A DNA stretch of 64,000 nt from Bradyrhizobium sp. B124 (GTDB lineage Bacteria; Pseudomonadota; Alphaproteobacteria; Rhizobiales; Xanthobacteraceae): the NCBI RefSeq assembly GCF_038967635.1, contig NZ_CP152413.1, positions 3,596,001 through 3,660,000 on the forward strand, written 5' to 3'. Positions 2,987 through 59,000 of the stretch are shown here, piece after piece. The stretch's first letter is position 1; every line of letters begins with the position of its first letter. Under the pieces are notes generated by a model. The model was not told where the DNA came from and made no database searches. It worked only from the letters and a program-made list of their open reading frames with translations. The position numbers and the translations under genes are program-made.

Positions 2987-3144
2987 CGCCGCTGATCCGA
3001 AAGACGCAGCCCTACACCAAGCTCATTGCCCATAAGGCTATCTGGGTGGAGCCGGAGGTGCTGGTTGAGATCGAATACCGTGCCAAGTCAGCCGAGGGTA
3101 AGGTACGGCATCCGTTCTTTCGGGGCGTCCGGGAGGATGTGTGA
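2987..3144 (+). pseudogene. LigD-type ATP-dependent DNA ligase, C-terminal fragment
   Basis: Directly after the ATPase remnant a different frame reads TPLIRKTQPYTKLIAHKAIW, then VEPEVLVEIEYRAKSAEGKV and RHPFFRGVREDV before TGA at 3142-3144. This is the end of the OB-fold domain of a LigD-type ligase; matching tails occur at 36.6-36.9 kb, 47.7-47.9 kb and (shorter) 58.95 kb. Only about 50 residues remain, there is no start codon and no adenylation domain, so it is a joined fragment. Confidence 0.8.
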
Positions 3145-3233
3145 GCGCCATCCCTTCTCCATAACAACAAGGGAAAAAGACGCATCTGCAACGGGTTCAG
3201 CATACCTATTTAAAGCATGAGCTTCTGCACAAT

Positions 3234-3250
3234 CTGTATGACGCAAACAG
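3234..3250. promoter_or_regulatory. Near-palindromic 17-bp operator-like motif, copy 1
   Basis: CTGTATGACGCAAACAG is an imperfect inverted repeat (CTGTATG / CAAACAG around ACG). The same 17 bp with one change occurs at 6458-6474, and both copies are preceded by CACAAT. It lies between the ligase fragment and the convergent helical-hairpin gene. I infer a transcription-factor site or mobile-element end; there is no direct evidence for either. Confidence 0.4.
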
Positions 3251-3280
3251 ACTATATTTCATTTGAAGCCTAACACCGGA

Positions 3281-3739
3281 TCACCTCTCAACCCGTCGAC
3301 GTTGGTGCGAGTGCTTGGCGCCCACTTTCTCCACCGCGCCGCTCGGTACTTGCTCAATCGTCCTTCTTCCATCCCATTGGATGTAGATGAAATTGGGTTT
3401 GAAGCCTTGCACGATTCCCTTGCGCGTCAGCCAATCCGGCGACCTGTTCTTGCGCGTGATCGCCTTGGCACAAGGGCGTTTGAGCTGGACCTCTTCGCCG
3501 CGACGGAACTGGTTCTTGTCTTGTTGGTCTAACACTATCTCAGTGCGCAAGGGATCGGAAAAATGTCTCCGGCCGCCCGCGTGGGCGCTGATCTCTGCAT
3601 ATTGAGGGAGCTCTAGCAGGGTGTCCTTTGCCAAACCTGGAGCTAGGTCATCCGCCCGCGCGCGAAGCTCCTTGGCCCGCTCTGCTAATCGTACGCCGAG
3701 TGTATCGGTCTGAATAACTGCGCGCCGTGCCTGTCCCAT
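3281..3739 (-). CDS. Chimeric ORF: helical-hairpin small protein N-terminus joined to an unrelated C-terminal domain
   Basis: 152 residues from ATG 3739. Residues 1-45 (AERAKELRARADDLAPG and flanks) match the short helical-hairpin family at 18303, 23292 and 39923, which are complete at 67-68 residues. After about residue 55 the sequence changes to a basic domain containing WLTRKGIVQGF and FIYIQWDGRRT, which looks like a small beta-rich hypothetical protein. The usual hairpin ending (MxxWLxSP) is missing, so this looks like a fusion or frameshifted join of two small genes. A terminator-like hairpin lies upstream at 3869-3904. Expression as one protein is uncertain. Confidence 0.55.
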   Translation of the reverse strand: MGQARRAVIQTDTLGVRLAERAKELRARADDLAPGLAKDTLLELPQYAEISAHAGGRRHFSDPLRTEIVLDQQDKNQFRRGEEVQLKRPCAKAITRKNRSPDWLTRKGIVQGFKPNFIYIQWDGRRTIEQVPSGAVEKVGAKHSHQRRRVER

Positions 3740-3868
3740 GTACTTGCCTCCCCAGGATGCCAGCGGTTCCTCTTTTACAGCGCCGCTCGGGAATGAAAGT
3801 GGAGGTTATTTTTGAGACGCGGCAGGAAGATGGTGCCTTGATGAATTAACTCGGGCCCTTAAAGGACC

Positions 3869-3904
3869 TCAAGATGAGCCGTCGCTGCCGGCGGCTCATC
3901 TTGA
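3869..3904 (-). terminator. 13-bp perfect hairpin
   Basis: TCAAGATGAGCCG (3869-3881) pairs perfectly with CGGCTCATCTTGA (3892-3904) around a 10-nt loop. It follows the 3' end of the leftward gene at 3941-4183 and lies upstream of the next leftward gene, so it probably ends transcription of the former. No strong T run is visible. Confidence 0.55.
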
Positions 3905-3940
3905 CGAGCGAGGCGTGATTTCGGTCAGTGGCATGTCCGC

Positions 3941-4183
3941 TCAATCGGGCGCGGGATCCCATCGAGCATTTTGCGCGGAGGGTCTGGACCGATTCTGAGC
4001 CCCCGCAAAAACGGTCAAGGGGGCGGCAGAAGATTGGCGGCCCATAAGGCTTATTATCTCGATGGCGAAATACTCCTCCGATAAGCGTGTTTCAACGTCG
4101 GTAAGCGTGGGTAGCAATAGTGCTCGATAGCGCTCGATGTTTCGCTCATGCGTCCGCATCAGCGCAATATCCCGCTCGTCCAT
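3941..4183 (-). CDS. Small conserved helical protein
   Basis: 80 residues if the ATG at 4183 is used (an in-frame extension to 4315 has no support and overlaps the opposing gene). The first 45 residues, RTHERNIERYRALLLPTLTD and flanks, form an amphipathic helix pair of the kind common in rhizobial short proteins; the tail after residue 50 is less regular and may be out of register. No catalytic motif. Function unknown. Confidence 0.5.
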   Translation of the reverse strand: MDERDIALMRTHERNIERYRALLLPTLTDVETRLSEEYFAIEIISLMGRQSSAAPLTVFAGAQNRSRPSAQNARWDPAPD

Positions 4184-4453
4184 AATGCGCCTACCTTGGC
4201 CAAGAGTCGGCGCGGCGCAGAGGACCTTGTCTTGATCGGCGCCGCGCAGCGGGTCGAGCACTATGAAATTTCCGGGTATACAACCACCCGCGACCTGGCC
4301 CAGCAGCTGCGGCACAGCGCCATCGTCGCTCTTCTTTCCAAATCACTAGCCGAAGAGGAAAATGCCGACCAGCTACTAAATCAGGTCGCACGCTCTTTGA
4401 TGTCTATGGCGAAGATGCCGGCGGCCATTGAGCAGACAGGAGAAACAGAGTGA
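4148..4453 (+). pseudogene. DUF892 (YciE/YciF-like) ferritin-like protein, C-terminal fragment
   Basis: From about 4216 the frame reads DLVLIGAAQRVEHYEISGY, then TTRDLAQQL, LAEEENADQLL and so on to TGA 4451-4453. This is the last two helices of the DUF892 four-helix ferritin-like family, including the EHYEI metal-ligand stretch. The first two helices are missing, and the 20 residues before the match look unrelated, so it is a 5'-truncated remnant. Its start overlaps the opposing small gene at 3941-4183. Confidence 0.7.
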
Positions 4454-4536
4454 ACTCGCGGGGAGCGGCCGCCGCTCGGTGGCTACGGTCGAATCGATGG
4501 CAGCGGAATGTTCGAACAAGCCAGGCAGGCCCGATG

Positions 4537-4782
4537 CTAACGAGGCAGGGCATACCGAACGGTGAACGATGGACCGTCCCCAGCTGGAGGTTCATAAACG
4601 ACTTCGTCGGCTGGCCCCATAAGCTGGCGCATGGCGTTGCAGGCCATTGGGTGCCTGTTCTGATCCGGGCTTACGATCCGGTGCAATTCGCCTGCGTTGA
4701 TCTCGACATGCGGACGCCCTTGTCTGGCCGCCCGACCGATTTGAGCCTCGGCCTCTTCGCGGAATTCTTCCGTGGTGGGCAT
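4537..4782 (-). CDS. Conserved hypothetical protein with HVEINAGELHR motif
   Basis: 81 residues, start ATG 4782. The order is MPTTEEFREEAEAQIGRA helix, HVEINAGELHRIV, then an acidic VVYEPPAGDGPSFTVRYALP ending. I recognise this as a small conserved protein of rhizobial genomes but know no function. The opposite-strand frame over the same bases lacks these conserved features and is taken as a shadow. Confidence 0.6.
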   Translation of the reverse strand: MPTTEEFREEAEAQIGRAARQGRPHVEINAGELHRIVSPDQNRHPMACNAMRQLMGPADEVVYEPPAGDGPSFTVRYALPR

Positions 4783-4988
4783 GGCACGCCCTCATTCCAA
4801 TCGATTGGCTTACAACTGATCAAAAATGTAATCGCCCACTCTAGCAGGTTGCCGCGGCTTCACAACCTTAGTTAGCAGTGACTTATTGTTCGCGTTCTCC
4901 GAATTACTGGATGCGAGCTCCTATCCCATCCGGGTCATTGACGCAGGACACGCATGCGATTGATCCTGGTCGATCAATATGGGCGGCC

Positions 4989-5201
4989 ATGACAGTCTCA
5001 GAAAAAATAGTTCGCGCCGTTCGCGAGCAGCCAGGTCAAACTGAACGTCAACTCGCTGATCGACTCTTCGGAGAGAACGCAGCGATACAGCGCGTCAACC
5101 CAACGTGCCGAAAGCTGGTCGCGCAGGGCCTGCTCTTGCGTCATGGCAAGGGGTGGCGCGCTGATCCATTCCGTTATCACCCGGCGAAGTCGGCTCATTA
5201 A
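4989..5201 (+). CDS. Small winged-helix DNA-binding protein
   Basis: 70 residues from ATG 4989 (a longer frame starts further upstream, but the conserved part begins here). EKIVRAVREQPGQTERQLAD followed by RLFGENAAIQRVN and CRKLVAQGLLLRHGKGW has the helix-turn-helix plus wing pattern of MarR/ArsR-like small regulators. No sensor domain, so it may be a simple DNA-binding or accessory protein. Confidence is moderate because it is short. Confidence 0.6.
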   Translation: MTVSEKIVRAVREQPGQTERQLADRLFGENAAIQRVNPTCRKLVAQGLLLRHGKGWRADPFRYHPAKSAH

Positions 5202-5255
5202 GCCTCCTGCGCCCCGCAATACGGAATTTCCTGTCACCGCTCCGCAACATGCGGG

Positions 5256-5594
5256 ATGTTCCGGCTGCTGGAACAGCAGTCTAGAGTCGACTGCTCGAAA
5301 TCTTTGCGGCAGCCTCGATCTCAACCGGGACTGAAGTATTATCATTGCACCGACGGGCAATTTTCCCGGACGGGCGCAGTGCGCAGTGCATTGCGGCCTT
5401 TTACAGCTCTTGCGCGAAACACTGTGCTTTTGTTCATCGATGCAGTAGCGGTCGGCGCTGTCGTGATCGGGACAATTTTTGTCATCGTCGACCATCTAGG
5501 CAGCCGGTCCAAGAAAGCGACTCCCACGTTGGGCGATTCCTGGAGTGGTTATGCCTACACTTGCGATCATCGACGCATGCCCTTTCTCCGCTGA
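5256..5594 (+). CDS. Possible small single-span membrane protein
   Basis: The only notable feature is a hydrophobic stretch VLLFIDAVAVGAVVIGTIFV near codons 58-77, followed by a basic DHLGSRSKK segment. The true start may be a GTG near 5424. No family recognised and no clear ribosome binding site; weakly supported. Confidence 0.25.
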   Translation: MFRLLEQQSRVDCSKSLRQPRSQPGLKYYHCTDGQFSRTGAVRSALRPFTALARNTVLLFIDAVAVGAVVIGTIFVIVDHLGSRSKKATPTLGDSWSGYAYTCDHRRMPFLR

Positions 5595-5633
5595 CGCGGC
5601 TAAAGGACGCTTTAGGCGCTCCAAGGAGGATTG

Positions 5634-8999: not shown

Positions 9000-9657
9000 G
9001 TTTCGGAGTTTGAATCACAGGCATCCCGCCAAACGCAACGCTCCCGGCCCTAGCTCCGGGAGACACTCGCGTCTTCGCCGGGGGCTCATTGTCGGAGTGA
9101 GACGCGTCATTCGGTCTCCTCTGTAGAGGGCGGCGTTGCAATCAGGGCACACTACTGGTTGTTGTACATTGAAGGCTCCTCAGCCTTATTGACGCAATCA
9201 GAAACAATCCCTTAGCGTAGCGACGGGCTGAATCCGCCATCGCTACGCCAAGCTGAATCCGAGGCTGACGCATGCGGCAAGAGGAAGAGTTGGGCGCACA
9301 ATGCGCGAATGCATTGGAGCTGTTGCGATTGGATCGAAGGCCCGCCTGATGGCTGAAGTCCGCGCGTGGAAGCACGGCAAGGCTTCCAGGGCGCCTGTTG
9401 CTTGGCGCGGCTTTGTCGGCTCGGCCGGTGTGGCTCAGGCCGCAACCACGCTGGTTCGGACAAAGCGTCGCTTCGGAACGCCATCGCCGCCGCGCATGCG
9501 GAATCCCGCGCCTCTGCAACCACGCTCACGCCTCCGCGCGCCTCTCGGCAAGAATGTTGCCTACCAGTGACCTGTCGACGGTCCTGCCGCGCAGGCCTGC
9601 CCATCGCCGGGCCACTTCACCAAACGCAATTCACACAGCAGAGTCGAGAGAACGGTC
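9000..9657. other. Gene-free stretch upstream of the autotransporter
   Basis: 658 bp between the insertion sequence and the autotransporter start. Several long frames exist on both strands but they are Arg/Ala/Pro-rich and show no family features. TTATTGACGCAATCAG near 9186 weakly resembles the palindrome at 3234 and 6458. The promoter of the autotransporter should lie here, but no convincing box was found. Confidence 0.4.
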
Positions 9658-12600
9658 ATGTCGTCGATAGGGATCGCCGTCGTCCGCCAGAGTGGAGCGG
9701 CCCCACGCTCCGCCATGTCATGGCTCGGCTCCGCATCGCTGATCGCTCTGACGGCGATGCTGGCGTTCGTGCCGCACAACGCTCATGCATCCAACGAATG
9801 CGGCGCGCCGGTTGGCGGCGTGGTCACCTGCTCTGGCAGCAATTATCCTCCGCCTGGCATCTCGTATGGTCAGGACGGTCTCACCCTGATTCTCAACAGT
9901 CCCAATATGGTTGTCCAGAAGACCACCAGCGGTAACGGCGCCGTCTATATCAGTACGTCGGCAGCCAACATCAATGACATCGTCGTCAATGCGCTCCTCT
10001 TCCAGTCAATTCAATCGATTGGAACTCTAGCGAACGGCATTTCCGTCGCGAACAGCGGGACTGCTGGCAACTCCATCGTCCGGGTGGATACCGGCACCGT
10101 GACAGGGAACAGCAATTCCGCCGGCACAGGGGCGGTTCTTGCGTTGATCAACAACGGCGCCGGCACAGGCAATGCCCTGATCACCCTCAATGGCGGGCAG
10201 CTCGTCAATACGGGGGCTGGAGGCAATGGCGCGGTCGCCAACAATGGAGGAATGGGCAACGCTACCGTCACGATGACGGGCGGCTCGGTCAGCACCAACA
10301 CCGGCACGGGCCTGCGTGCGATCGTCAGCAATGCCGCCTCGTCCGGCACGGCCAGCGTCGCCATCAGCGGCGGAACGGTTACGACCGCTTCGGGCACGGG
10401 CGTGTTGAGCCAGTCAGAGCGCGGCAGTGCCGGCGTCATCATGACGGCCGGCACGCTCACGGTCCAGGGCGGCGCCAACCCCGCCCTGAACGCCGTGGTC
10501 AACAATGCCGCCGGCACTGGCGCGGCCAGCATCGCTGTCAACGGCGGCACCGTCACGAACAACGGCAGCGGTGATGGCCTGTTTGCCAACAACAAGGGCA
10601 CTGGGACCTACAACATCAGCATCACCGGCGGCACGGTGACCGGCGGTTCCGGCACGGGCGCCGCGATTCATGCCGCCGGCGCCGCGGGGGGCACCATCAC
10701 CATCGGCTCGGCTGCCACGGTCAACGCCGGAGCCTCGGGCATCGCCCTCAACCAGACGGGCGGAGCGGCCACCATTACCACGGCGGGCGCCGTAACCGGA
10801 AACATCAATCTCGGCATCGCCAGCAATGTGCTGGATATCACGGGCGGCACCATCGCGGGCAACATCAGCGGCGGCGGCAACAGCGCCTTGAAGTTCGATC
10901 TCGGCGCGGGCACCTTCGTCTATGGCGCCGCCAATTCGATCAGCGGCATGAACAGCGTCGCCATGAACTCGGGCTCAGCCCGAATCGACGGCAGCCTTGC
11001 CACCAACACGCTTGCCGTCAATGGCGGCAGTCTGATCGTCAACGGCGCCGCCACGGTCTCAAGCGGGACGACGATCTCGGCGGGCACGCTGCAGCTCGGC
11101 AATGGCGGCTCCTCGGGCTCGATCACCGGCGATGTGACGAACAACGGCATGCTCGCCTTCGACAGGTCGGACGCCTATACCTTCGCCGGGCGGATCTCGG
11201 GCAGCGGCGCGGTCAATCAGATCGGCTCCGGCACGACCGTCCTGACCGGCAACAACAGTTACACAGGTGGGACGACGATCTCGGCTGGTACGCTGATCGT
11301 CAATGGCGATCAATCGGCGGCGACCGGGCTCACCACGGTTCAGAGCGGCGCCACGCTCGGTGGTAACGGCACCATCGGCGGCAGCGTCACTGTGGCGAAT
11401 GGCGGCACCCTCTCGCCCGGCACTGTCGGTAATGCTCCGGGCACGCTGACGATCCAGAAGGATCTGGTGCTGAACGGACGATCGGTCCTGAACTTCAATT
11501 TCGGCCAGGCCAACGTGGTGGGCGGCCCGCTCAACGATTTGACCAAGGTCAACGGCAACCTGACGCTCGCCGGCACGCTCAATGTCACCGCCTCACCCGG
11601 CGGCAGCTTCAACCCTGGTGTCTACCGCGTGATCAGCTACGCGGGCACGTTGACGAACAATGGACTCGCTGTCGGCACAATTCCGTCACCCGGCTATTAC
11701 GTGCAGACTTCGATTGCCAATCAGGTGAATCTCGTCAACACGACGGGAGTGACGCTCAATTTCTGGGATGGCACCGCGGGTCCGAAGAACAATGGCGTGG
11801 TCAACGGTGGCAACGGCGTCTGGCAGAACTCCGCCGGCAACGACAGCTGGACGACCGCGGACGGCGCGATCAACGCGCCCTACAGCAACGGCTCGTTCGC
11901 AATCTTCGCCGGCACCGCCGGCACGGTGACCATCGACAACAGCCTCGGCCAGGTCAGCGCCTCCGGCATGCAGTTCGCGACCGACGGCTATCATCTGGTC
12001 GGCGGCGCCATCGCGCTCGTCGGCGCGCCCACCATTATTCGCGTCGGCGACGGCACGACAGCCGGTGCCGGCTATGTGGCGACCATCGACAATGTGCTTA
12101 TCGGCAATTCGCAGTTGGTGAAGGCCGATCTCGGAACCTTGGTACTGAACGGCCTCAACACTTACACCGGCGGCACGGCCGTGACCAAAGGCACGCTCTC
12201 GATCTCCAGCGACGCCAATCTGGGCGCGTCGGGCACTTCGCTCACACTCGACACCGGTAGGCTGCAGACCACGACCAACATCACCAGCGATCGTAACGTC
12301 ACCATACCGACGACCGGCACCTTCCTGACGAAGGCCGGCACCACTCTCACGTTGAATGGCACGGTCTCCGGCGCCGGCGACCTCGTGAAGGATGGCGGCG
12401 GCACGCTGCTCTTCAATGGTCTTGCCACGAACGCTGGTAGCACGACGGTTGCCGGCGGCACGCTGCAGGCGGGCAGAAGCAGCGTCTTGAGTGCGCTCTC
12501 TAGCTTTTCTGTACTGAGTGGCGGGACGCTCGATCTGAATGGCCAAGGTCAGACCATCGCAAGCCTGAGCAATGCCGGCACGGTCAAGCTGGGTGGTACG

Positions 12601-13988
12601 CTGGGCACCACACTGACGGTGACCGGCAACTACGGCGGTAATGGCGGGCTGCTCACGCTCAATACGGCCCTTGGCAATGACGCGTCGACGACCGACAGAT
12701 TGGTTGTGCAGGGGGGCACCTCGGGCACGACCTCGGTCAAGGCGACCAAGGTCGGAGGCCTTGGCGCGCAGACCGTTGAAGGCATCAAGATCATCGATGT
12801 TGCCGGAGCGTCGAACGGCACGTTCGCGCTGCTCGGAGATTACGTGTTTCAAGGCCAGCAGGCGGTGGTTGGCGGCGCCTACGCCTATACGCTGCAGAAG
12901 AACGGCATCAGCACACCCGCGGATGGCGACTGGTATTTGCGCTCGAGCCTGATCAATCCGGCTCCCGCCACACCAGCCGGACCGCTCTACCAGCCGGGCG
13001 TACCGCTCTACGAGAACTATGCCCAGGTGCTGCTCGGCATGAACGAGGCGCCTTCGCTTCAGCAGCGCGTCGGCAACCGCTACTGGGGCGGCACGCGAGC
13101 GAAGCGATGGCGCGCATGGGCGTGACGCCGGCCGCGCCGACCGATCCTTCATGGACGCAGTCCGCATTCTGGGGCCGCATCGAGGGGGAGTAAGTCAGCT
13201 TGCAGCCATCCAACACCACCGGTTCGACCTACAACGCTGACCAGATGAAGGCGCAGGCCGGGCTCGACGGCCTTGCGCTCGAGAATGCTTACGGCCAGTT
13301 GATCGTCGGCCTCACCGCGCAATATGGTCTGACCACGGCTTACGTTAATTCGTTCTTCGGCAATGGCACGATCCGCGCGTCGGGCAGCGGTGTCGGCGCC
13401 ACAGCGACCTGGTACGGCGACAACAGCTTCTATGTCGACGGCCAATCGCAGACGATGTTCTACCGCGCCGATCTGTCGTCGGCGCTGACTGGCAGCATGA
13501 CCCATGGCAATGAAGGCGTCGGCTATGCCTTCAGCGTCGAGGGCGGCAAACGGATCGGCGTCGGCAACGGTTTCTGGCTGACGCCGCAGGCGCAGCTTGC
13601 CTACTCCAGAGTCGAGTTCGATCCGTTCACCGACCGCTTCGGCGCGCAGGTCTCGCTTGGCAACGCCGACAGCCTGCTCGGCCGCGTCGGACTCGCGCTC
13701 AACCACCAGCGCACCTGGAACGACGGCAGCGGCATCGTGCGCTCCGACGTCTATGCGATCGGCAACCTGCACTACGAGTTCCTCAACGGCAGCAGGGTCG
13801 ACGTCGCCGGCACCAGCTTCGCCAGCGCCAACGACCGGCTGTGGGGCAGCATCGGCGGCGGCGGCACCTATAGCTGGGCAAGCGGCCGCTACGCCGTGTT
13901 CGGCGAGGTCAGCTACCGCGCCAGCCTCGACAATCCGAACGAGAGCCACAGCTACAAGGGCACCGGCGGCTTCCGCGTGACGTGGTGA
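9658..13988 (+). pseudogene. Autotransporter (type Va) with beta-strand repeat passenger, split by frameshift and stop
   Basis: Predicted surface protein of about 1,440 residues. ATG 9658 begins an extended signal region (LIALTAMLAFVPHNAHA, cleavage near residue 47). The passenger is Gly/Asn/Thr/Ser-rich with many degenerate repeats of the autotransporter-associated beta-strand type (for example GTTVLTGNNSYTGGTTISAG near 11240 and LNGLNTYTGGTAV near 12150). A one-base shift near 13092 ends the first frame at 13123-13125. The next frame reads ASEAMARMGVTPAAPTDPSW and FWGRIEGE, then TAA at 13191-13193, then continues as a complete 12-strand beta-barrel domain (about 260 residues) ending GFRVTW, with the terminal aromatic residue needed for outer-membrane insertion. 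As read, passenger and barrel are separated, so no surface display is expected. Confidence 0.85.
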
Positions 13989-18302: not shown

Positions 18303-18509
18303 GTGGAGCAGCTACAGCGACGTCGCATCAAACATGAAAAGAGCTCCCGTGAACACCTAGCGGAAGAGGCTCAATACTTCCGCGATGAAGCCCTCAAACT
18401 TCGGCCAGGGACGGCTCGCGAACTGCTTTTGCGTCGGGCCCGTCAGACGGAAACCGCTTCGCGCATGGATGACTGGTTGAAGTCTCCGGGATTAAAATCG
18501 CCAGAGTAG
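18303..18509 (+). CDS. Short helical-hairpin protein (family copy)
   Basis: 68 residues from GTG 18303, with GGAGA upstream. Basic N-terminus, then EHLAEEAQYFRDEALKLRPG, ELLLRRARQTETASRM and DDWLKSPG. Two amphipathic helices separated by a Pro-Gly turn and a conserved WLxSP ending. Near-relatives at 23292-23495 and 39923-40126, and a fused copy at 3281-3739. Function unknown; the pattern suggests a coiled-coil oligomer or adaptor. Confidence 0.7.
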   Translation: MEQLQRRRIKHEKSSREHLAEEAQYFRDEALKLRPGTARELLLRRARQTETASRMDDWLKSPGLKSPE

Positions 18510-19613: not shown

Positions 19614-20462
19614 ATGGCCCCGCGCGCCAATTGGAAGGGCTTTTTGCGACTGTCCCTGGTGACGTGTCCAATCGCACTGTTCCCGGCGACCTCTGAATCC
19701 GACAAGATCAGTTTCAATCAGATCAACAAAAAGACCGGTCACCGTATCAAGTATCTGAAGGTCGATGCCGATACCGACGAAGAAGTTGAGTCCGACGACA
19801 TCATCAAGGGCTTCAAGGTCGACACCGATCAATACCTCGAAGTGACCAAGGACGAGCTCGAGAACATCGCGCTGGAGTCGACGCGCACCATCGAGATCGA
19901 CGAGTTCGTGCCGAGGAGCGAGATCGACGATCTCTATCTCGTACGACCGTACTACATCGTTCCTGACGGCAAGGTCGGCCACGACGCTTATGCGGTTATC
20001 CGGGAAACCATCCGCTCGCTCGATAAAGTCGCCCTCGGCCGAGTGGTCTTGACCAATCGCGAGCACATCATCGCTCTCGAGGCGCGCGACAAGGGTCTCG
20101 TGGGCATGCTGCTTCGCTACCCCTATGAAGTTCGTAACGCCGCGGAATACTTCGACGACATCCAGGGTGTGAAGATCACGAAGGATATGCTGGAGCTCGC
20201 CAAGCACATCGTCGAGCAGAAGTCCGGCCACTTCGAGCCAGAGAAGTTTGAAGACCACTACGAGCAGGCTTTGCAGGAACTGCTCGACCAGAAGCGCAAG
20301 GGCCTTCCGATTGCGACCGCCCGAAGGCCGGCACCGAGCAATGTGTTCAATTTGATGGACGCTTTGAAGCAAAGCATCAGAAGCGGCGACAAAACTAAGC
20401 CAACGACAAAACCCGCGAAAGCGAAGAAGGCGACGGCCAAGCCTCGCCGTAAGGCAAGTTAA
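19614..20462 (+). CDS. ku: Bacterial Ku protein (non-homologous end joining)
   Basis: 282 residues from ATG 19614 (MAPRANWKGFLRLSLVTCPI). Ku homodimers encircle broken DNA ends and recruit LigD. The bacterial Ku core is complete: SFNQINKKTGHRIKY, the central beta-barrel with EIDEFVPRSEIDDLY, MLLRYPYEVRNA, and the C-terminal helical arm (MLELAKHIVEQKSGHFEPEKF). A Lys/Ala-rich tail (KPAKAKKATAKPRRKAS) is the usual DNA-binding extension. The LigD-type ligase 550 bp downstream on the same strand is frameshifted, so the pair as read would lack its ligase unless another exists elsewhere. Confidence 0.95.
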   Translation: MAPRANWKGFLRLSLVTCPIALFPATSESDKISFNQINKKTGHRIKYLKVDADTDEEVESDDIIKGFKVDTDQYLEVTKDELENIALESTRTIEIDEFVPRSEIDDLYLVRPYYIVPDGKVGHDAYAVIRETIRSLDKVALGRVVLTNREHIIALEARDKGLVGMLLRYPYEVRNAAEYFDDIQGVKITKDMLELAKHIVEQKSGHFEPEKFEDHYEQALQELLDQKRKGLPIATARRPAPSNVFNLMDALKQSIRSGDKTKPTTKPAKAKKATAKPRRKAS

Positions 20463-21017: not shown

Positions 21018-21916
21018 ATGAAGCGGGCCACAAAAATTGCTGAAATGCCGGGCTTTATAAAGCCCCAGCTCGCAATCCTGAGGACCAAGGCGCCGACTGG
21101 CGACTACCTCCACGAGATAAAGTACGACGGCTACCGCATGCAGCTCCATGTGGACCACGGAGCCAAGAAGGCCTTCACAAGGAATGGCCTGGATTGGACG
21201 AAGCGGTTCTCGCTGATCGCCGTCGCCTTCGAGATACCCGGTCAGGCCATCATCGACGGTGAGGTAGTGGTCGTCCACGAGGGCCGAACCAATTTCTCCG
21301 AGCTCCAGGCCGACCTCGCCAGAGGCGACCAGGATCGGTTGCTCTATTATGCCTTCGATCTTCTATGGCTCGATGGGAAGGACTTGCGGAGAACGCCGCA
21401 GGTTGGGCGCAAGGCAATGTTGCAGGGTCTATTCAATACTCATCAGATCGAACCTCCCGTTCTCTACAGCGAGCACGTCGAAGGTGACGGCCAGGCTCTC
21501 TTCGCGCCGCCAAGCTGAACTACGAGGGGATCGTTTCGAAGCGAGCCGATGCGCCGTATCGGTCAGATAGGAACGAGGCCTGGCTGAAAATCAAAACCGT
21601 GCAACGAGGAGAATTTCCGGTCGTCGGATTCATCAAAGACCCTGCGGGTGTTGCTGCGCTCTATCTTGGGAGGCGGGAAGGCAACGATCTGGTCTACATG
21701 GGGAAGGTTGGGACGGGCTGGAATCGGACGACCTCGGCGAAGATCCGCAAGGCGCTCGATACCGTAGTGAGCCCCAAGGCCAAACTGACAAAGCCAATCA
21801 AGAAACCCAAGGCCACGTGGGTCGAGCCGAAGTTCTATGCGGATATTGAATACCGGGACATCACGTCCGAAGGCCTGCTGAGAGCTAACTCGTTTAAGGG
21901 TCTTTCGGAAAACTAG
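21018..21916 (+). pseudogene. ligD: LigD-type ATP-dependent DNA ligase, single frameshift
   Basis: Stand-alone ligase-domain LigD (about 300 residues, no polymerase or nuclease domain). Motif I EIKYDGYRMQLH contains the adenylated Lys (near residue 35); motif III/IIIa DGEVVV and YYAFDLLWLDG, and motif IV NYEGIVSKRAD follow, with motif V AWLKIKT. One base is missing near 21505 (FARAAKLNYEG expected; the first frame ends at 21516-21518), after which the second frame continues to TAG 21914-21916. It lies downstream of ku on the same strand. Sequence differs from the other four ligase traces, which resemble each other more. A single-base error in the sequence would restore it. Confidence 0.85.
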
Positions 21917-23291: not shown

Positions 23292-23495
23292 CTAGATTGG
23301 AGCGCGTGGCTCGGGAGACATCAGCCACTCGGTCAAATGAGCGGTGGTCTCATTATGCCGCGCCTTTCTTAGCAATGCTTCCCGCTCTCGGCATGGGGGA
23401 AGCTGTCTAGCTTGTTGGCGCAGCTCTCTAGCTTCCTGGGTAAGACGTTCTTCAAGCGGGACAGTCTGAGCAACCCTGCGCCGTCGTCGCTTCAT
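23292..23495 (-). CDS. Short helical-hairpin protein (family copy)
   Basis: 67 residues from ATG 23495: MKRRRRRVAQTVPLEERLTQ, then ARELRQQARQLPPCREREAL, LLRKARHNETTAHL and TEWLMSPEP. Same layout as 18303 and 39923: basic start, two helices, WLxSP ending. The Gly of the turn is Cys here. Followed 10 bp later by the 36-residue gene. Confidence 0.7.
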   Translation of the reverse strand: MKRRRRRVAQTVPLEERLTQEARELRQQARQLPPCREREALLRKARHNETTAHLTEWLMSPEPRAPI

Positions 23496-23594
23496 GACAC
23501 CTACCTCGTCTTATGGGTCTTAGCCGTAGGTATGGATTCACGAATCTTAATATGTCGATGGTGGCCGATCAGTTCCAAAGTGAACGTGGAGAGA

Positions 23595-36604: not shown

Positions 36605-36955
36605 CCTTTGAAATCATCTCGCAAGCCCCTGAAGAAAGGGGGCCGGAGCTTGCCCTCCGCGGACTTCGCTCGGTACTCGACCTCAGCAAGCAGCTCGGGC
36701 TCAATCCAGATGCCCGTGTAGGCGATGCGACGAGTGTAAGGCTGGGTTTTGCGGATCAACGGCGTGAGTTTCTCGCGAAGATCAGCGGCCGACGCCTTGT
36801 CGAACCCGTGATCCACCTTTCCCGCGTAAATCAGCTCGTCGCCCTTTCGACGATGTAGATGCCGTCCCACTTCGTGCCGTCGAGCGAGAAGCCCGCGATG
36901 GTCAGCGTCTCCCGCTGTGCACACGTCACCTTGACCCAATCACGACTATGTCCGG
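36601..36955 (-). pseudogene. LigD-type DNA ligase, C-terminal fragment
   Basis: Leftward: DWVKVTCAQRETLTIAGFSL in one frame (motif V, Lys present), then after a shift near 36855 KGDELIYAGKVDHGFDKASA, LTPLIRKTQPYTRRIAY and WIEPELLAEVEYRAKSAEGK to the stop at 36601. About 115 residues of the OB-fold domain; the adenylation domain is absent. Very similar to the fragments at 3.0, 47.5-47.9 and 58.7-59.0 kb. Confidence 0.85.
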
Positions 36956-37234
36956 TCGGATATCGGCTACCCACGCGTCGTTAAGCGTCAGAATTCATCC
37001 GTTCGGATTGAATTTTGGTCCTAACATCCAGCGAGAAATGAATTCCCTATGCCATGAACGAAAGCGCTGCATCAGGCCACCCGGCGGGAAATGTAGCCGA
37101 CGGTCAGTGGTCGGCGGTCGGCGTGGCTGTTAGGGAACCGAAACAAAAAGTCAGACTGAGAGGTCCTTATTCAGTAGGCTCCCCTCCTGGACGCGTTCTA
37201 ACCTCGTCTTTTATTCGGCACGTAGGTGAGGAAT

Positions 37235-39904: not shown

Positions 39905-39922
39905 ACGAGGGAAAGGGTCATA

Positions 39923-40126
39923 ATGGGCCAAATTCGACGCCGGGTCGTCCCCACGAATTCACTTGAAGCGCGGCTTGTAGAGCGAGCTAAAGAGTTACGC
40001 GAACAGGCCGCCGCACTCGCCCCAGGTATCGAGAAAGAGGCCCTGTTGAAGCTGGCTCAGCAAGCTGAAGCTGGCGCTAGCATGACTGGATGGCTGCGCG
40101 GTCCCGCGTTTCAGTCCTCAACATGA
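39923..40126 (+). CDS. Short helical-hairpin protein (family copy)
   Basis: 67 residues from ATG 39923: MGQIRRRVVPTNSLEARLVE, RAKELREQAAALAPGIEKEA, LLKLAQQAEAGASMTGWLRG. Closest to the N-terminal half of the chimera at 3281-3739 (MGQxRRxVxxTxxLxxRLxE) and similar to 18303 and 23292. Its TGA overlaps the ATG of the next 33-residue membrane peptide. Confidence 0.7.
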   Translation: MGQIRRRVVPTNSLEARLVERAKELREQAAALAPGIEKEALLKLAQQAEAGASMTGWLRGPAFQSST

Positions 40127-46142: not shown

Positions 46143-46445
46143 CTAGAACTCTTCGCCAGTGAAGAACTGGAAATACGCGTCGTGGACCCAGCGCTCGCAC
46201 ACCCGCTCATCGGACAGGCCATAAATGTGCTTGAGCAGCAGCAGCCCCATCATGAAGCGGGTCGCAATCCCCGGTCGACCGTTCTCGCTATAGGGCGGCG
46301 CGATCTCGCCGTCGATCCAGTCCCAATCGACCTTGCCGGCGAGCTGAACCAGCTCGTGCTTCATATCCCTGCTGATCCTCGCCATTCCAACAAGCCTGGT
46401 CGAGCCTTCAGGCTCATCGCGATGGCAGTGGCCGGCGAAGGCCAT
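46143..46445 (-). pseudogene. IS5-like transposase, N-terminal fragment
   Basis: About 75 conserved residues: VDWDWIDGEIAPPYSENGRP, GIATRFMMGLLLLKHIYGLS, DERVCERWVHDAYFQFFTGE EF then TAG where the family has Gln before His-Ala. No catalytic core follows. A different subgroup from the intact element at 8.2 kb. Its insertion probably interrupted the membrane-protein fragment at 46.4-46.6 kb. Confidence 0.7.
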
Positions 46446-46565
46446 TGGATCACCGGCACCGTCATGATGATCGCCGCCTACGGCTGCAGCCTCTTGTTCG
46501 TCGAACGCCTGTTTCGAATCGTGCGGCCCAAATTATTGAGCCTGCCGTGGTTTGCGCGGCTGTGA
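46425..46565 (+). pseudogene. Membrane protein C-terminal fragment
   Basis: AVAGEGHWITGTVMMIAAYG, CSLLFVERLFRIVRPKLLSL, PWFARL then TGA: the last membrane helix and WFARL end of a conserved rhizobial membrane protein. Its 5' part is replaced by the transposase fragment on the other strand. Confidence 0.55.
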
Positions 46566-46950: not shown

Positions 46951-47858
46951 ATGGCGTTCCAGCGGAGAAAACCAGCGGCGATCGGCGTCAAGGCGCGGTT
47001 TCCGGGGATTCGTCGAACCCGCACTTGCCACCTCGATCGAACGAGGGCCGCAGGGCGAGCGCTGGATCCATGAAATCAAGTTCGACGGCTATCGGGTTCA
47101 GCTTCACATCGCTAATGAAGACGTCAAGGTATTCACGCGTCGCGGCAACGACTGGACCAGGCGCTTCAGGAAGATCGCACGACGTGTTCCTGATCAGCGC
47201 CTCCTCGACGGCGAGGTCGTCGTGCCTGCTGCGGACGGGACCACCGACCTGTCGGTGCTGCAAAACGAGCTCAAGGGGGAAGTCAGACAAGATCGCGATG
47301 GTCGCGTTCGACCTGCTATACCTCAACGGCCACGACCTCCGCAAACTGCCGCTGGTCGAGCGCAAAACCTTCTGAAGAAGATGATCGCCAAGACCGCAAT
47401 TCAGTTCAGCTAAAGCTTCGAAGTCGAGGGTCCCGAGATGTTCCAGCATGCCTGCGGCGTCGGTCTTGAGGGCGTTGTCTCCAAGGTCAGGGACAGTCGC
47501 AGTTCAGGCCGCGACAGAGATTGGGTCAAGAAGACCTGTGCGCAGCGGGAGACGCTGTCCATCGCCGGCTTCGCCACGAAGGAAAACAAGTTCGGCGGGC
47601 TTTACCTGGGCCGGCTTCAAGGGCACGGATCTTGTCTACGCCCAAGGTCGACCAAGGTTTCGATGGCGTCTCGGCGAAGGATCTCCAGGCAACTCTGAAA
47701 CCGCTGGTCCGAAAGACGCAACCCTATGCCAAGCGGCGGATCGCTCACCGGGGAATCTGGGTCGAGCCGTCTTTGCTCGCGGAAATCGAATTCCGGGCGA
47801 AGTCCGCCGAGGGTAAAGGGCGGCATCCGTTTTTCAAGGCATCCGCGAGGATCTCTGA
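46951..47858 (+). pseudogene. LigD-type DNA ligase, heavily decayed full-length copy
   Basis: ATG 46951 (MAFQRRKPAAIGVKARFPG), shift to FVEPALATS near 47010, then motif I EIKFDGYRVQLH with the adenylation Lys, motif III DGEVVV; shift near 47283 to AMVAFDLLYLNGHDLRKLPL (motif IIIa), shift near 47370, TAA at 47411-47413 in FS-SFEVEG, motif IV LEGVVSKVRDS, motif V DWVKKTCAQRETL, shift near 47620, then DGVSAKDLQATLKPLVRKTQ and the tail ending GIREDL after another shift. At least six lesions. Same subfamily as the fragments at 3.0, 36.6 and 58.7 kb. Confidence 0.85.
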
Positions 47859-53238: not shown

Positions 53239-53895
53239 GTGTGGTCCAGGCTGCCAAGGCAAGGTTTTTGGTCGGCAGGATCTTGCTCGGCGTCGATTTA
53301 CGATCGCAAAGACCTTGTCACGAACATCTATATCGCGCTGATGGAGCGCCGCATTCGCAGAGAGGACGTTCCGAAGCGCATCAGCGAGTTTACTAAGGAG
53401 CACACGAAGCTGTTCCTCAACCGGCAGGACGGCAAGAAACGCACGCCACTCTCACTCAGCGACTTTATCTTCGATAGCCGGCGACAAACTCGAGAACAGC
53501 CCATGCCAGACACCACCCCGCGACTGCGCGGCACAGAGGCGATTGTCCATGAACTCGACCGACAGGGCGTCGCCGAGGTATCGCGAGCGAATTCCTTTAC
53601 TTCCGCCCAGCCTAGCGTTCGTCTCTTTTTAGGACGGGTAAGCGGCGTCACGACGTGCAAGCCTTGCCCAAACGGCACGAGGCCGAGTTCGAGAAGGCGA
53701 TCGCGGATTTCCTTTGCGGCGTCGATGACCGCTTCGAATGCGACGTCCGCCTCCGCCCCATGGCGCGTTCGCTCTTTGCCAAAGGTCCTCGTCTATTGCG
53801 CGCGGATAATAACCTTGGATCGCCCGTCGGATATCCGCTCGCCCCGCCGCCGAGTAGAATCCTCCTTTGGCCTGCTCCGGGGGAGGAAAATCTGA
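53239..53895 (+). CDS. Uncertain hypothetical region
   Basis: Codons from about 53295 read YDRKDLVTNIYIALMERRIR, REDVPKRISEFTKEHTKLFL and TPLSLSDFIFDS, which look like a real helical protein; after about 53520 the frame becomes Arg/Ser-rich while another frame at 53655 reads LPKRHEAEFEKAIADFLCGV. I suspect one or two decayed genes. No family recognised. Confidence 0.3.
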   Translation: MWSRLPRQGFWSAGSCSASIYDRKDLVTNIYIALMERRIRREDVPKRISEFTKEHTKLFLNRQDGKKRTPLSLSDFIFDSRRQTREQPMPDTTPRLRGTEAIVHELDRQGVAEVSRANSFTSAQPSVRLFLGRVSGVTTCKPCPNGTRPSSRRRSRISFAASMTASNATSASAPWRVRSLPKVLVYCARIITLDRPSDIRSPRRRVESSFGLLRGRKI

Positions 53896-55061: not shown

Positions 55062-56465
55062 CTACCGGCAAGAGGCAAGGGTTGGACCCGGAGATCTTGC
55101 TTGATCGGAGGGGCCGCTTTGCAACGCCGCTCGCCTTTCGGCGACGGCATGATCGAACAGTTCAAGGACCAGGCCGAATGCGGCCAGGTCATCTTGTTCG
55201 ATCGCTCCATCATCGTAGCACTTCAGGGTTTCGCCGATGATCGCGTCGACTTCGCGTTGCGATGTCAGCAGGTCCTGTTCGGACCCGGCATTCCGAAGCT
55301 CCGAGACCACGGCGAGAATGCGGTTGCGGTGGCTGATGTTGTCGTCCCGTTCGTCCCGGTTCAGATAGCGACGCAGCCAGGCGGCAGCCGAACCGATCCC
55401 GGAAAGAAGAAGCAACGCGAACCAGAAGTAATCGCTGTACTTGTCCAGAAAGGTCCGCTCGGTCCCGTTGATGACCGCTGCGGCGCCCCGGTGCACGGAG
55501 GGCTCCGCCTCCTTCTCCGTCTCGGGCTTCGTGATGTGCGCGGCGCCGGAGACACGATGCGTGATCGTGTCGCGGACAGCGAAAAGCTGTCGGTAGAAGG
55601 CCGCCGCCTTGGCTTCGGACAGTTCTTTTCTGGCCAGGATGAGATGGTTGACGCTGATGGTGTCGACCTTGTCCTCAGGCCAGGCCGGTTTCGCGTTGAA
55701 GACACTGCCGGGAATTTCCTCGGCTTCGTAGCGGGCGTGCTTCAGGGCGATGGCCTCGGACGTTTCGACCGGAAGAAACTTCGGAGCTCCGCGCGATCGC
55801 GAAGTCGCGGCGATCGCGGCGGCAGTGATCTTGCTATCGAGCGGGCCGACGGCGAGATAGGCGTCGAGAGTGGCGTCTTGCCCAAGCTTTTCGATCTCTT
55901 CGGTCCCGAATTGGACCGTCGTAACCTTGTCCGGCTCCACGCCGGAGGCGACGAGAATGGTCCGTAGAAGTGCGAGGTTGGCTCCGGTCCTTCCGATGAT
56001 GGCGACCTTGCGACCCGCCAGATCGGTGATCCCTCCGATCTTCCCGGTGGCCGTTTTCTTTGAGTCCTTGCGAGGTCCCCCGGAAGGCGACCACAGGACG
56101 ACGTAGTTCTTCCGCAGGACCGCCAGTGTCTGCGCATCGGCAGGCATGCCAAGGTCGCCGCGACCGATTGCCAGGTCGGTTTTGCCGGCGCCCAGCAGAG
56201 CCAGGGATTCGGCCGCTCCTTCAGTCGTGATCGGGGAGAGCCTGACGGTCCTGCTTTCCTCCCCGAAAGCCTCGGCCATCGCTTGGACCACCTGATGATC
56301 GTCGCTGCCTGCGGGTCCGACGGCGATCCGGAGGGTCTCGGGCTGCAAGACGTAGAAGAGGGCGGCCGCAGCGGCGCCAAAAACAACAAAGCCCAATGCC
56401 AGCACGATCAGTAGCCTTTGTTGGCGTCGATCGTGAGCACTCCTGACTGTATCGGACGGTGACAT
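55062..56465 (-). CDS. TAXI-family (TRAP-type) solute-binding membrane protein
   Basis: 467 residues from ATG 56465. N-terminal membrane anchor (LLIVLALGFVVFGAAAAALF), then a periplasmic-binding fold (TLRIAVGPAGSDDHQVVQAM; GKTDLAIGRGDLGMP; LAGRKVAIIGRTGANLALLR) of the TAXI group, and a C-terminal membrane helix (FWFALLLLSGIGSAAAWLRR) with a cytosolic tail. No TRAP permease is adjacent, so it may be an orphan sensor or binding protein. Intact, in contrast with its neighbours. Confidence 0.85.
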   Translation of the reverse strand: MSPSDTVRSAHDRRQQRLLIVLALGFVVFGAAAAALFYVLQPETLRIAVGPAGSDDHQVVQAMAEAFGEESRTVRLSPITTEGAAESLALLGAGKTDLAIGRGDLGMPADAQTLAVLRKNYVVLWSPSGGPRKDSKKTATGKIGGITDLAGRKVAIIGRTGANLALLRTILVASGVEPDKVTTVQFGTEEIEKLGQDATLDAYLAVGPLDSKITAAAIAATSRSRGAPKFLPVETSEAIALKHARYEAEEIPGSVFNAKPAWPEDKVDTISVNHLILARKELSEAKAAAFYRQLFAVRDTITHRVSGAAHITKPETEKEAEPSVHRGAAAVINGTERTFLDKYSDYFWFALLLLSGIGSAAAWLRRYLNRDERDDNISHRNRILAVVSELRNAGSEQDLLTSQREVDAIIGETLKCYDDGAIEQDDLAAFGLVLELFDHAVAERRAALQSGPSDQARSPGPTLASCR

Positions 56466-56682
56466 CAGCAGAACCTACGTGAACAAACGCCCGCTTGGGA
56501 GCTACAAGTGCGCCGCCGGTAGTTTGGGCGAACCAGTGTATGACCGGAATGTTCCGTCGCGCCCGCGAGAAAAAGTTCACGGCAGGCCTGGCTTCAACTG
56601 AGAAAGATTACTTCTTCGGGCGCCGATGGCGGAACCTTGCTATCATTCTCGATGCTCCCGCAAATGGCGGCGATAAGAAAAC

Positions 56683-57026
56683 ATGAACGAGCTTCTACCG
56701 TCGACCGCGATGCGCTCATCTCGACGGGCGCGATGGCCACGTCCACGGTGGTCACCACCACAGGCACCGGCCATGCCGCCACCGTACAGATGGAGCCCGA
56801 ATACCGCACCAAAATCCGCACCTACGTCACCGAACACAAGATCCGTCCGATACAGAGCCCCGAGAAGATCGTTGTCGGTTCACGGGTGCCGCGCGATGTT
56901 GAGCTCGAGGCAGTCCCCGCGGAATGGGCCCCTCACTCACCAAGTACCGCTAACTACATCTATTCGGGCGAACGCGTGATGCTGGTCGACCCGCCGACGC
57001 GCACCGTGGTCCAGGAAGTGGATTAA
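56683..57026 (+). pseudogene. DUF1236 protein, frameshift in the signal region
   Basis: ATG 56683 starts MNELLPSTA; a shift near 56712 leads to ALISTGAMATSTVVTTTGTG HA, the rest of a signal peptide, then the DUF1236 domain: EYRTKIRTYVTEHKIRP, VGSRVPRDVELEAVPAEW, YIYSGERVMLVDPPTRTVVQ EVD. Related to the two DUF1236 repeats of the protein at 59472-60575. Confidence 0.7.
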
Positions 57027-57118
57027 GCGAAGCGGCGCGCGCCGCCTGAAAGCGACCCGCCCCGCTCAACGTCCGGCACGGGACGCAAAAGCGAGCCTTA
57101 ATTCCGAGACGGCGGTCC

Positions 57119-57520
57119 ATGCCGATCATCCGATATTTCGTACCGTAGGCCGGCTTCTGCTGACGCTGCTCTTTGCCGCGAACCGGTACCTGCCGGCCCC
57201 GACCGAGCGCGAGGGCGCGACCGATACCGACAGGACGAGCATCCGACCAGCTCGGCGAGAAGTCTTCCGAGTAGATCGTTTCGACACGCGTCCGCGCGCC
57301 GACGTCCCGAAGGTCGTGCAGGCCGAGCAGATGCCCGACGAACCGCAGCAGCCGCTTCGGGAGGCGATGGTCGCCCTCCCTGCAGCGCCTCCTTCCGAGA
57401 TCAAGAAAGAAATGCCGGGCGGAGCAGCGCCCGCATGTCAAGCGACTGACGAGGATGTCAAGAGCTCCCGAACGTCGGCTGGCTTTCGGACGGCACAACC
57501 TGTTCTTCGGCGACTGGTGA
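57119..57520 (+). pseudogene. Rhizobial membrane protein (MPIIRYFV...FFGDW), two frameshifts
   Basis: ATG 57119: MPIIRYFV, shift near 57137, then GRLLLTLLFAANRYLPAPTE (membrane anchor) and FDTRPRADVPKVVQAEQMPD; a second shift between 57420 and 57450 leads to RMSRAPERRLAFGRHNLFFG DW and TGA 57518-57520. The conserved end RLAFGxxxxFFGxW is characteristic of a Bradyrhizobium protein family of unknown role. Confidence 0.75.
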
Positions 57521-57545
57521 GCGGAAGGCCGGTCCCAATGAAAAG

Positions 57546-57569
57546 GGCCGCGCCTTCGGGTGCGCGGCC
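57546..57569. terminator. Hairpin between convergent genes
   Basis: GGCCGCGC (57546-57553) / GCGCGGCC (57562-57569) with loop CTTCGGGT, preceded by AAAAG. Serves the convergent genes ending at 57520 and 57595. Confidence 0.65.
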
Positions 57570-57594
57570 TCGGTTGCGTTCGGATGGACTGGTC

Positions 57595-58011
57595 TCACCA
57601 GTGGTAGTGGCGATGCCAGCGGTGCCGTACGACCGGATAGGATTCGCGGTAATAGGCGTAGGCGGGGCGCACGACGCGGCGATAACGGTTGCCGTAAGAT
57701 ACAGGCGCCGTGTAGTAAGTCGTGGTGTAGCCGCCGCCCCAGCGATAGGGTTCGTCGTAGCCATAGTCGTAGGCATAGGGACCGCCATAATAGCCGGCTC
57801 CATAGTAGCCGGGGCCGCCGTAGTAGCCATAGCCGGGTCCCCAGCCGTACGCCGAGGAGGCAAGCCCCCCGATTACAGCACCCGCAACCAGTCCGCCGGC
57901 GATACCCGGTCCCCAGCCACCTCGCCAGTGAGCTTCGGCAGGAGACGTCGTGGCCACCGAGGCCAGACCAAGGGCGCCGACCATCAGCGCCGACATTGCA
58001 ATCTTCTTCAT
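57595..58011 (-). CDS. Gly/Tyr-rich secreted protein
   Basis: 138 residues from ATG 58011. Signal peptide MKKIAMSALMVGALGLASVA (cleavage near AEA), Gly-rich hydrophobic segment (GIAGGLVAGAVIGGLASSAY) that may insert into a membrane, then GYYGGPGYYGAGYYGGP repeats and a His/Arg/Tyr end (VVRHRWHRHYHW). A class common in Bradyrhizobium envelopes; role unknown. Confidence 0.8.
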   Translation of the reverse strand: MKKIAMSALMVGALGLASVATTSPAEAHWRGGWGPGIAGGLVAGAVIGGLASSAYGWGPGYGYYGGPGYYGAGYYGGPYAYDYGYDEPYRWGGGYTTTYYTAPVSYGNRYRRVVRPAYAYYRESYPVVRHRWHRHYHW

Positions 58012-58293
58012 CCGGGACTCCTTTCACATCGCGCATGTCCCAGATAACGGGAAAAATAGGCAATGGTTGCTGCTGCCCCCGGCGGCGAAGGGCAATGGGA
58101 GCTCGGCGCCGGGCAGCGTCGCTCGAAGCTTCGCTTGGAACACAAGCGCTCATCGCGCAGAGGAGTTAGGTCCGGATGCTGCGGCGCGAGAAGAGCTGCG
58201 CAAAGAGGCATCTGAAGTGGCGGCGTTAACTATGTTGAATTCGCCAACTGAATTTCTTGCGTTAGGCTCCGCCTCTCTCGCCTTTGGGGGTCT

Positions 58294-58491
58294 ATGTTCG
58301 ATTTGGCCACGACTGCGCTTCTGCGCACCATACTCGACGAGGTCTGCGAAGACATCTCGCATTTCGAAACCGGCGCTCGCCCTCACGTCGCTTCTAGGAT
58401 TGAGAGCGGCGACGGAGGTCGATTGCGCAAGTACGGCTTCGCGGGTGCCCAACTCGGCTACCTCTTGGACGGCGCGGCCCTCTTCCACTAG
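58294..58491 (+). CDS. 65-residue conserved protein, possibly frameshifted
   Basis: ATG 58294: MFDLATTALLRTILDEVCED, ISHFETGARPHVASRI, a well-recognised start of a small rhizobial protein; the part after SRIESGDG differs from what the family shows (a helix such as LEAA...), and the adjacent frame reads LRAATEVD at that point, so one indel is likely near 58400. Confidence 0.5.
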   Translation: MFDLATTALLRTILDEVCEDISHFETGARPHVASRIESGDGGRLRKYGFAGAQLGYLLDGAALFH

Positions 58492-58639
58492 GAGGGCGCT
58501 CGACGTTTGCCACGCTCTGCTGGAAGTCCTTGCCTTCCAATTGCCGGCCACGGGTTCGCCCGCACTCGCCCTCCTGCTGGAAAACGCCCGCAAGCCAACC
58601 GTGCGTGGGCCGAGCAGTCGCCCTTTGGACTCATCGCTG

Positions 58640-59000
58640 AAGCGACGCGGCTATCACTGGAGCGACGGTAGCGATGACGAAAGCTCCAAGATCCTGGGTC
58701 GCGAGATGTTCTCGCATGCCTGTAAGCTCGGGCTGGAAAGCGTCATATCGACGGTGCGCGACAGCGTCTACGCGAGCGGCCGTGGCAACAACTGGGTGAA
58801 GAAGGCTTGCGCGCAGCGCGAGACCCTGACCATCGCGGGCTTCGCGCTCGACGAAAGCAAATGGGACGGCAATTATCTCGGCCAGCGTAAGGGCGCCGAT
58901 CTCGTCTACGCCGGCTAGGTCGACCACGGGTTTGACGAGACTACCGCCGCCGACCAGCAGAAGCGCCTGAAGCCGCTGATCCGGAAGACGCGGGGCCGCG
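58640..59000 (+). pseudogene. LigD-type DNA ligase, C-terminal fragment with nonsense codon
   Basis: LGREMFSHACKLGLESVIST (motif IV region), NNWVKKACAQRETLTIAGFA (motif V), GADLVYAG then TAG (58916-58918) where the others have Lys in YAGKVDHGF, then VDHGFDETTAADQQKRLKPL IRKT before the match is lost near 58995. No adenylation domain. Closest to the 36.6-kb fragment. Confidence 0.85.

Follow-up and report, generated by a model that had tools for sequence, protein, structure and literature searches.

Decayed Ligase-Only LigD Genes in a tRNA-Pro Genomic Island of Bradyrhizobium sp. B124

Ligase Sequences and ku in the Window

We analyzed a stretch of 64,000 nucleotides from Bradyrhizobium sp. 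B124 (G000:C1:3596001-3660000, hereafter the window), whose genome is a single contig of 9.17 Mb, for LigD-type DNA ligase sequences of non-homologous end joining (NHEJ), which a previous sequence-only reading had reported at five places, one of them next to a ku gene. All five places were found to hold ligase sequence. Four of them (T1 to T4) scored above the curated PF04679 cut-off, while T5 fell below it (E 0.0013, 22.2 bits) and was identified by tblastn with an intact relative (E 5e-43). The features are collected in Table 1, where residues are numbered on an intact ligase relative of about 305 amino acids (aa) according to tblastn alignments.

Table 1. Features of the window and of the surrounding island. 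Positions are those of the window unless preceded by G000:C1.
Feature	Position	Strand	Remarks
T1, C-terminal scrap, main family, residues 253-305	2983..3144	+	PF04679 over cut-off; tblastn 77% identity to P0002
T2, second ligase-only family, full length, one frameshift	21018..21916	+	Adjoins ku; PF01068, PF04679
T3, main family, residues 185-305, frameshifted	36610..36968	-	PF04679, tblastn
T4, main family, full length, several frameshifts and one stop	46951..47858	+	PF01068, PF04679, tblastn
T5, main family, residues 157-262, one stop, both ends missing	58679..58993	+	tblastn
ku, open gene, predicted start	19650..20459	+	PF02735 E 9.0e-46, no stop; TIGR02772 270.8 bits, over cut-off
LigD primase-polymerase (POL) domain scrap	53583..53747	-	PF21686 E 1.5e-5, below cut-off
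RNase_T-type exonuclease remnant	58411..58674	+	Abuts T5; precedes ligase in four relatives
Block right of T5, DUF1236 region	58999..61036	.	92-93% identical in G013, G179, G243; both ends sharp
Transposase remnant (DUF772), upstream of T4	46146..46532	-	About 230 bp of the remnant with 92-95% DNA matches in many genomes
Small family of about 67 aa	3632-3739, 18318-18503, 23298-23498, 39920-40105		Four window places; no Pfam match
Hsp20 gene	61842..62306	+	ROSE thermosensor at 61763-61860
Genomic island, tRNA-Pro-bounded, 241.8 kb	G000:C1:3558729-3800512		Entire window inside
tRNA-Pro gene	G000:C1:3800436-3800512		One island end
47-bp perfect repeat of tRNA-Pro 3' end	G000:C1:3558729-3558775		Opposite island end
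Integrase domains	G000:C1: 3558917, 3784046, 3799878		Two just within island ends, one at 3784046

By sequence comparison, T1, T3, T4 and T5 are assigned to one ligase-only LigD family of about 305 aa, here called the main family, and T2 to a different one. T2 showed 37-46% identity to the main family, and its read-through translation was 82% identical to an intact protein of another Bradyrhizobium ligase-only family. The T4 read-through returned 85% identity over 98% of intact P0002, and its alignment to the relative of about 305 aa ran from residue 1 to about 300; the earlier claim of a single nearly whole copy, the one next to ku, thus needs correction, as T4 is full length too, with its several frameshifts. 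The grouping of the other four traces in one family was upheld, but the three tail motifs quoted in its favour are not common to all of them, as T5 (residues 157-262) is without two of the three.

The adenylation domain PF01068 followed by PF04679 occurs in T2, in T4 and in intact P0002, and T1, T3 and T5 carry only those parts of the NHEJ-ligase domains that were spared by truncation. The active-site region, with the sequence HEIKFDG in T4 and HEIKYDG in T2, is missing from T1, T3 and T5; its KxDG element is what we take to be the ligase active-site lysine motif. P0002 itself consists of ligase domains without PE or POL and is therefore not a three-domain LigD. The isolated POL scrap in the window (Table 1) suggests that a longer LigD has decayed here as well. 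No ligase domain was found adjoining this scrap.

A genome-wide PF04679 profile search with E values up to 10 returned 11 matches, namely T1 to T5, two further main-family remnants (T6, in the island but outside the window, at about 3729251, residues 213-297; T7, at 7617573, residues 248-305), two intact ligases (3.21 and 6.37 Mb) and a pair of weak matches (E 0.16 and 0.74). The check for an intact LigD elsewhere in the genome proved positive, as a three-domain LigD (PE, LIG and POL in an 889-aa open frame) lies beside an open ku at 3.21 Mb; the 6.37 Mb locus holds an ATP-dependent ligase in an open frame of 776 aa. A third open ku was found at 8.83 Mb, and two positions, 3667153 and 7509287, hold remnants of the gene. 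The ku and ligase scraps at 7509287 and 7617573 (L070 and L071) lie 80-190 kb from nifH, in DNA where the coding density is very low.

The named relatives of the window ku are mostly from Bradyrhizobium, plus Rhodopseudomonas and a few others. This ku is open but the adjoining T2 is frameshifted, so that it lacks the open ligase frame at its side that a functional Ku-ligase pair would require. The presence of a T2-like ligase beside ku was discarded as a general rule, a similar ligase occurring within the flank in 11 of 80 ku loci, with 33-50% identity.

The tRNA-Pro Genomic Island

The window belongs to an island that shows the features by which tRNA islands are recognized: an identical 47-bp direct repeat of the tRNA 3' end, a tyrosine integrase and a shift in composition. 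The tyrosine integrase beside tRNA-Pro is a 431-aa open frame (3799206-3800501), and the frame at the far border is shorter (246 aa). The guanine-cytosine (GC) content was 0.596 in the island versus 0.652 outside (3.44-3.55 Mb), with shifts at the coding-density boundaries. Of the six 20-kb pieces that precede 3.56 Mb, five reached a coding density of 0.81-0.90 and the sixth, at the island border, 0.73; values ranged from 0.05 to 0.44 between 3.56 and 3.80 Mb, and the next piece had 0.60. Because the measure was calibrated on a small number of genes from outside the island in the same genome, intact foreign genes score low as well. The island is probably foreign DNA.

Six of the 11 genome-wide PF04679 matches fall inside the island, which makes up 2.6% of the genome (binomial 1.4e-7). 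All the window traces lie in this one tRNA-Pro island, in agreement with the earlier suggestion that such ligases travel with inserted DNA.

The stretch at 3.76-3.80 Mb (L067 and L068) had a coding density of 0.05 despite being open in long frames in parts, and contains two integrase domains; GC was near 0.55 at 3776001-3800000, the tRNA-Pro end of the island. This stretch may be a younger element at that end. The tRNA-Arg gene at 3661833 was rejected as a second island border, since its longest repeat within 3.44-3.82 Mb is at most 13 bp, and a symbiosis island was likewise discarded, nifH being located at 7.43 Mb, distant from the window.

The low coding density also bears on the quality of the broken frames. 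Sequencing or assembly errors are unlikely as a rule, because the same assembly shows coding densities mostly of 0.81-0.90 outside the island versus 0.05-0.44 within. The single frameshift of T2 could be such an error and would fit a reading in which the ligases are in fact intact; with most of the gene missing from T1, T3 and T5 and several lesions in T4, however, we regard that reading as extremely improbable for the set.

The Ligase Family in Other Genomes

The occurrence of the main family was surveyed in 257 genomes of the same genus with a 53-residue tail query, at E 1e-9 or better. The family was present in 125 of them, with at least four matches in 17, including the present genome, and a maximum of seven, a count in which weak matches may include other ligases. 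Many copies are broken: 46 among the 150 tails listed lie in open frames shorter than 280 aa, too short for a whole gene, three or four of them owing to contig ends. Inspection of 40 of these short-frame tails (the other six lie in loci already covered) showed that 18 span almost the whole gene but carry frameshifts, stops or small gaps, and that 22 are truncated. Truncation points were mapped for 27 remnants, 19 from the inspected tails and eight from this and other genomes, and ranged from residue 22 to 255, with 13 at 222-255, a range that the tail query favours. A shared breakpoint in the ligase tail was discarded, as the 27 points show no single site.

Whole and broken copies occur within tens of kilobases of each other in G106 and G158, and G147 carries a near-whole frameshifted copy plus a remnant. 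A parallel to the present arrangement was found in G053. Its whole ligase, which scored best against T4 among proteins of other genomes, is enclosed by two 47-bp site copies that lie 219 kb apart and each differ from ours by one mismatch; tRNA-Pro there has an adjoining integrase of 81% identity, and an integrase remnant occurs at the other site copy. In the draft genome G160 one site copy is located 16 kb from a ligase. A tRNA gene beside a whole ligase was rejected as a general pattern, being found at 2 of 20 loci. The family is not bound to the tRNA-Pro site and appears to ride many accessory regions.

The Two Edges of T5

Both edges of T5 were compared with the corresponding DNA of relatives. 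In L087, L091, L093 and L142 the exonuclease precedes a ligase, the matching parts of the two being separated by 0.9-2.8 kb. Because the two genes lie apart in four relatives but abut here, the left edge of T5 is a deletion, as judged from these alignments. At the right edge, G013, G179 and G243 have a broken ligase of the same family that reaches its natural end, followed by 620-640 bp and then by the DUF1236 block, an order with which a deletion here would be compatible. Their ligase copies share 78-82% identity with T5, below the 92-93% of the adjoining block. The three genomes are mutually collinear over 7.5-9.7 kb, past both block ends. What lies to the left of the ligase in these genomes has no match to the window. 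In L142 (G058) the order is exonuclease, ligase, block, with 74-81% identity throughout. The right edge may thus reflect either deletion or recombination that joined DNA of different history; that the block is more closely related than the ligase to G013, G179 and G243 spoke against settling on a plain deletion. A call on microhomology at either edge was set aside, the parent sequences being too diverged.

The sequence-only reading had placed the ligases near fragment junctions and proposed that they might take part in the insertions. The first statement fails at the left edge of T5, a deletion, and may be retained at the right edge as a possible recombination junction. According to the second, the ligases, together with Ku, would help to join foreign DNA into the region and the scraps would mark those events. 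In its favour, the title of Dupuy 2019, a reference of PMC10932983, ascribes heterologous DNA acquisition to stress-inducible NHEJ, a passage of PMC5124664 suggests that variable NHEJ genes may modulate DNA acquisition, the window ku is open and T5 borders on a junction where DNA of different history meets. However, the island already has tRNA site repeats and tyrosine integrases, the left edge of T5 is a deletion, the truncation points of the 27 remnants are scattered and none of the five window copies is whole. A role of the ligases in insertion, possible in principle, is unsupported here, and we consider it improbable that the scraps mark such events. There is an equally slim chance that intact island ligases and Ku raise the joining or keeping of broken or incoming island DNA and become expendable once the island is established; if ligases did aid in this way, islands would fill with ligase wrecks, and the right junction of T5 would be one trace of the process.

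Origin of the Copies

The kinship of the traces was evaluated by comparison with copies from other genomes and with each other. At the DNA level T1 showed 83.5% identity to a copy from another genome versus 74.9% to the nearest other window trace, T3 77.5% versus 71.6% and T5 82.8% versus 71.6%, the window values leaving aside a 27-bp match between T1 and T5. T4 was compared as protein and showed 85% identity to outside intact proteins versus 56-70% to the other window traces. A self-comparison of the window showed that similarity among the traces ends at the ligase boundary, and returned no flanks or terminal repeats common to the copies, so that no copied unit is apparent. In a quick tree, in which many branches are weak, T4 grouped with intact proteins, a Bradyrhizobium group took in T5 and T6, and T1 and T3 fell near a third set.

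Since T1, T3 and T5 in DNA and T4 in protein are nearer to outside copies and their flanks differ, the copies are likely of separate origin. The sequence-only reading had left open whether one subfamily was copied or repeatedly gained, and then lost: repeated gain and loss are apparent, while the copying of one unit is unsupported, as similarity stops at the ligase and the traces have nearer kin outside. It had also held that its single-subfamily picture would fail if each trace were closest to a different ortholog. T4 and T5 do have separate best matches, but T1 and T3 have the same best outside DNA match, L076, and a single clade is not rejected.

We consider it probable that these accessory ligase-only LigD pseudogenes are cargo of the tRNA-Pro island, probably brought by several arrivals and now eroding. 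The island would have entered by site-specific recombination at tRNA-Pro, as suggested by the repeats and integrases, and the ligase genes would have come in alongside ku, exonuclease and stress genes, as part of this cargo or of an earlier one. Since the genome has an intact LigD-Ku pair elsewhere, the island ligases would have been expendable, and the observed frameshifts and deletions would then have eroded them. We infer both that the arrivals were separate, rather than the products of an old duplication, and that loss is due to the retained LigD-Ku pair at 3.21 Mb.

A number of results weigh against this interpretation. In DNA, T4 is 74.6% identical to outside copies (929 bp) versus 74.9% to T1 (171 bp), and T1 and T6 share 84.1% identity over 69 bp, about equal to the best outside match of T1. 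The approximately unbiased (AU) test keeps a clade of T1, T3, T4 and T5 (p 0.079) as well as one of T4 and T5 (p 0.359). The search for positional orthologs in 265 genomes recovered only T1 itself at 1e-150 and, for T3, only segments at least 1.3 kb away; a positional ortholog was established for neither T3 nor T4. Among the matches listed, 20 genomes carry the site and the ligase together on one long contig; the ligase lies between two site copies in one of them (G053) and at least 0.7 Mb from tRNA-Pro in 18, and in the remaining one (G147) the ligases are 155-169 kb from it. Finally, at the right edge of T5, where DNA of different history has been joined, identity rises abruptly from about 80% to 94%.

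Because the clades are unrejected, the T4 DNA identities are level and T1 and T6 are close, an old duplication inside the island has to be considered, in which a single ligase arrived, was duplicated and then diverged and broke. All four traces belong to one family, T1 and T3 have their best outside match in common, and several other families are present two or more times in the same region, all of which speaks for this scenario. It is at odds with the greater closeness of T1, T3, T5 (DNA) and T4 (protein) to outside copies, with the lack of common flanks and with the exonuclease-ligase order that T5 keeps from four other genomes, and we judge it unlikely, though clearly less so than a role in insertion.

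Gene Neighbourhoods and Other Decayed Families

The neighbourhoods of 20 loci around best-match copies were set against 18 control stretches taken from the same genomes which, as a further point against the cargo interpretation, were unmatched for accessory DNA. SRAP (PF02586) was found in 9 of the 20 ligase loci (seven substantial, two fragments), ku in six (some partial), the small family of about 67 aa (Table 1) in five, exonuclease in three and Hsp20 in two, each with no occurrence in the 18 controls. SDR did not differ (3/20 ligase loci versus 4/18 controls). The median coding density was 0.31 in the ligase loci versus 0.595 in the controls (p 1.5e-4). Hsp20, encoded in the window to the right of T5 (Table 1), also adjoins a whole ligase in L104 and L105.

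Second or broken copies within 3.44-3.82 Mb were observed for ku, Holin-X, BrkB, DUF3618, Hsp20, IS5 transposase, PRC-barrel, HAD, NMT1 and DUF1236, together with remnants of exonuclease and SRAP. At least two of the four window places of the small family of about 67 aa are open frames, and a further place occurs at 3666087. The ligases are the most numerous wrecks among the families met in 3.44-3.82 Mb, but others exist too. The statement that no other family decays in this number is correct insofar as the self-comparison of the window gave none with five traces, but many nearby families are duplicated or eroded too, and the small family has four window places. An autotransporter is split over two frames, 9571-13122 (passenger, PATR and autochaperone) and then 13194-13985 (beta-domain).

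Comparison with Known Systems

The locus provides a bounded example of the turnover of accessory NHEJ ligases in the genus, where they are widespread, multi-copy, located in stress and repair neighbourhoods and often broken. This bears on the origin of the multi-copy ku/ligD sets of rhizobia, and LigD domain counts in large genomes may include wrecks. A passage of PMC7719229 describes NHEJ as gained and lost many times, with some bacteria, in particular Rhizobiales, having it on plasmids, and a table in a S. meliloti prophage study (PMC12429752) contains a LigD entry. No report of decayed ligD copies in Bradyrhizobium islands was found in the literature searched, judging by titles and abstract openings.

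Among the known classes, the main family corresponds to the ligase-only LigD homologs of TIGR02779 (NHEJ_ligase_lig), for which P0002 and P0121, both intact relatives, reach 269.5 bits (cut-off 227.75), the window copies being pseudogenes. The best solved sequence by phmmer was the ligase-like protein Rv0938 (1vs0). Streptomyces has core and variable NHEJ genes, as described in parts of PMC5124664, and the present case is alike in having a conserved set plus sporadic extra ku and ligase genes in variable regions of the chromosome; unlike the sets described there, the Bradyrhizobium extras are mostly decayed and lie inside a tRNA island. Several ku and ligD copies are likewise reported in passages of PMC10932983 for R. 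etli, with four ku and one three-domain ligD only, and for S. meliloti, with four ku and five ligD; unlike here, those passages make no mention of decayed copies or islands. Finally, the Bradyrhizobium photosynthesis region, bounded by a tRNA according to a passage of PMC7656271, resembles the present island in having the tRNA at one border and a partial repeat at the other, but it carries photosynthesis genes, whereas the island described here holds much decayed cargo.

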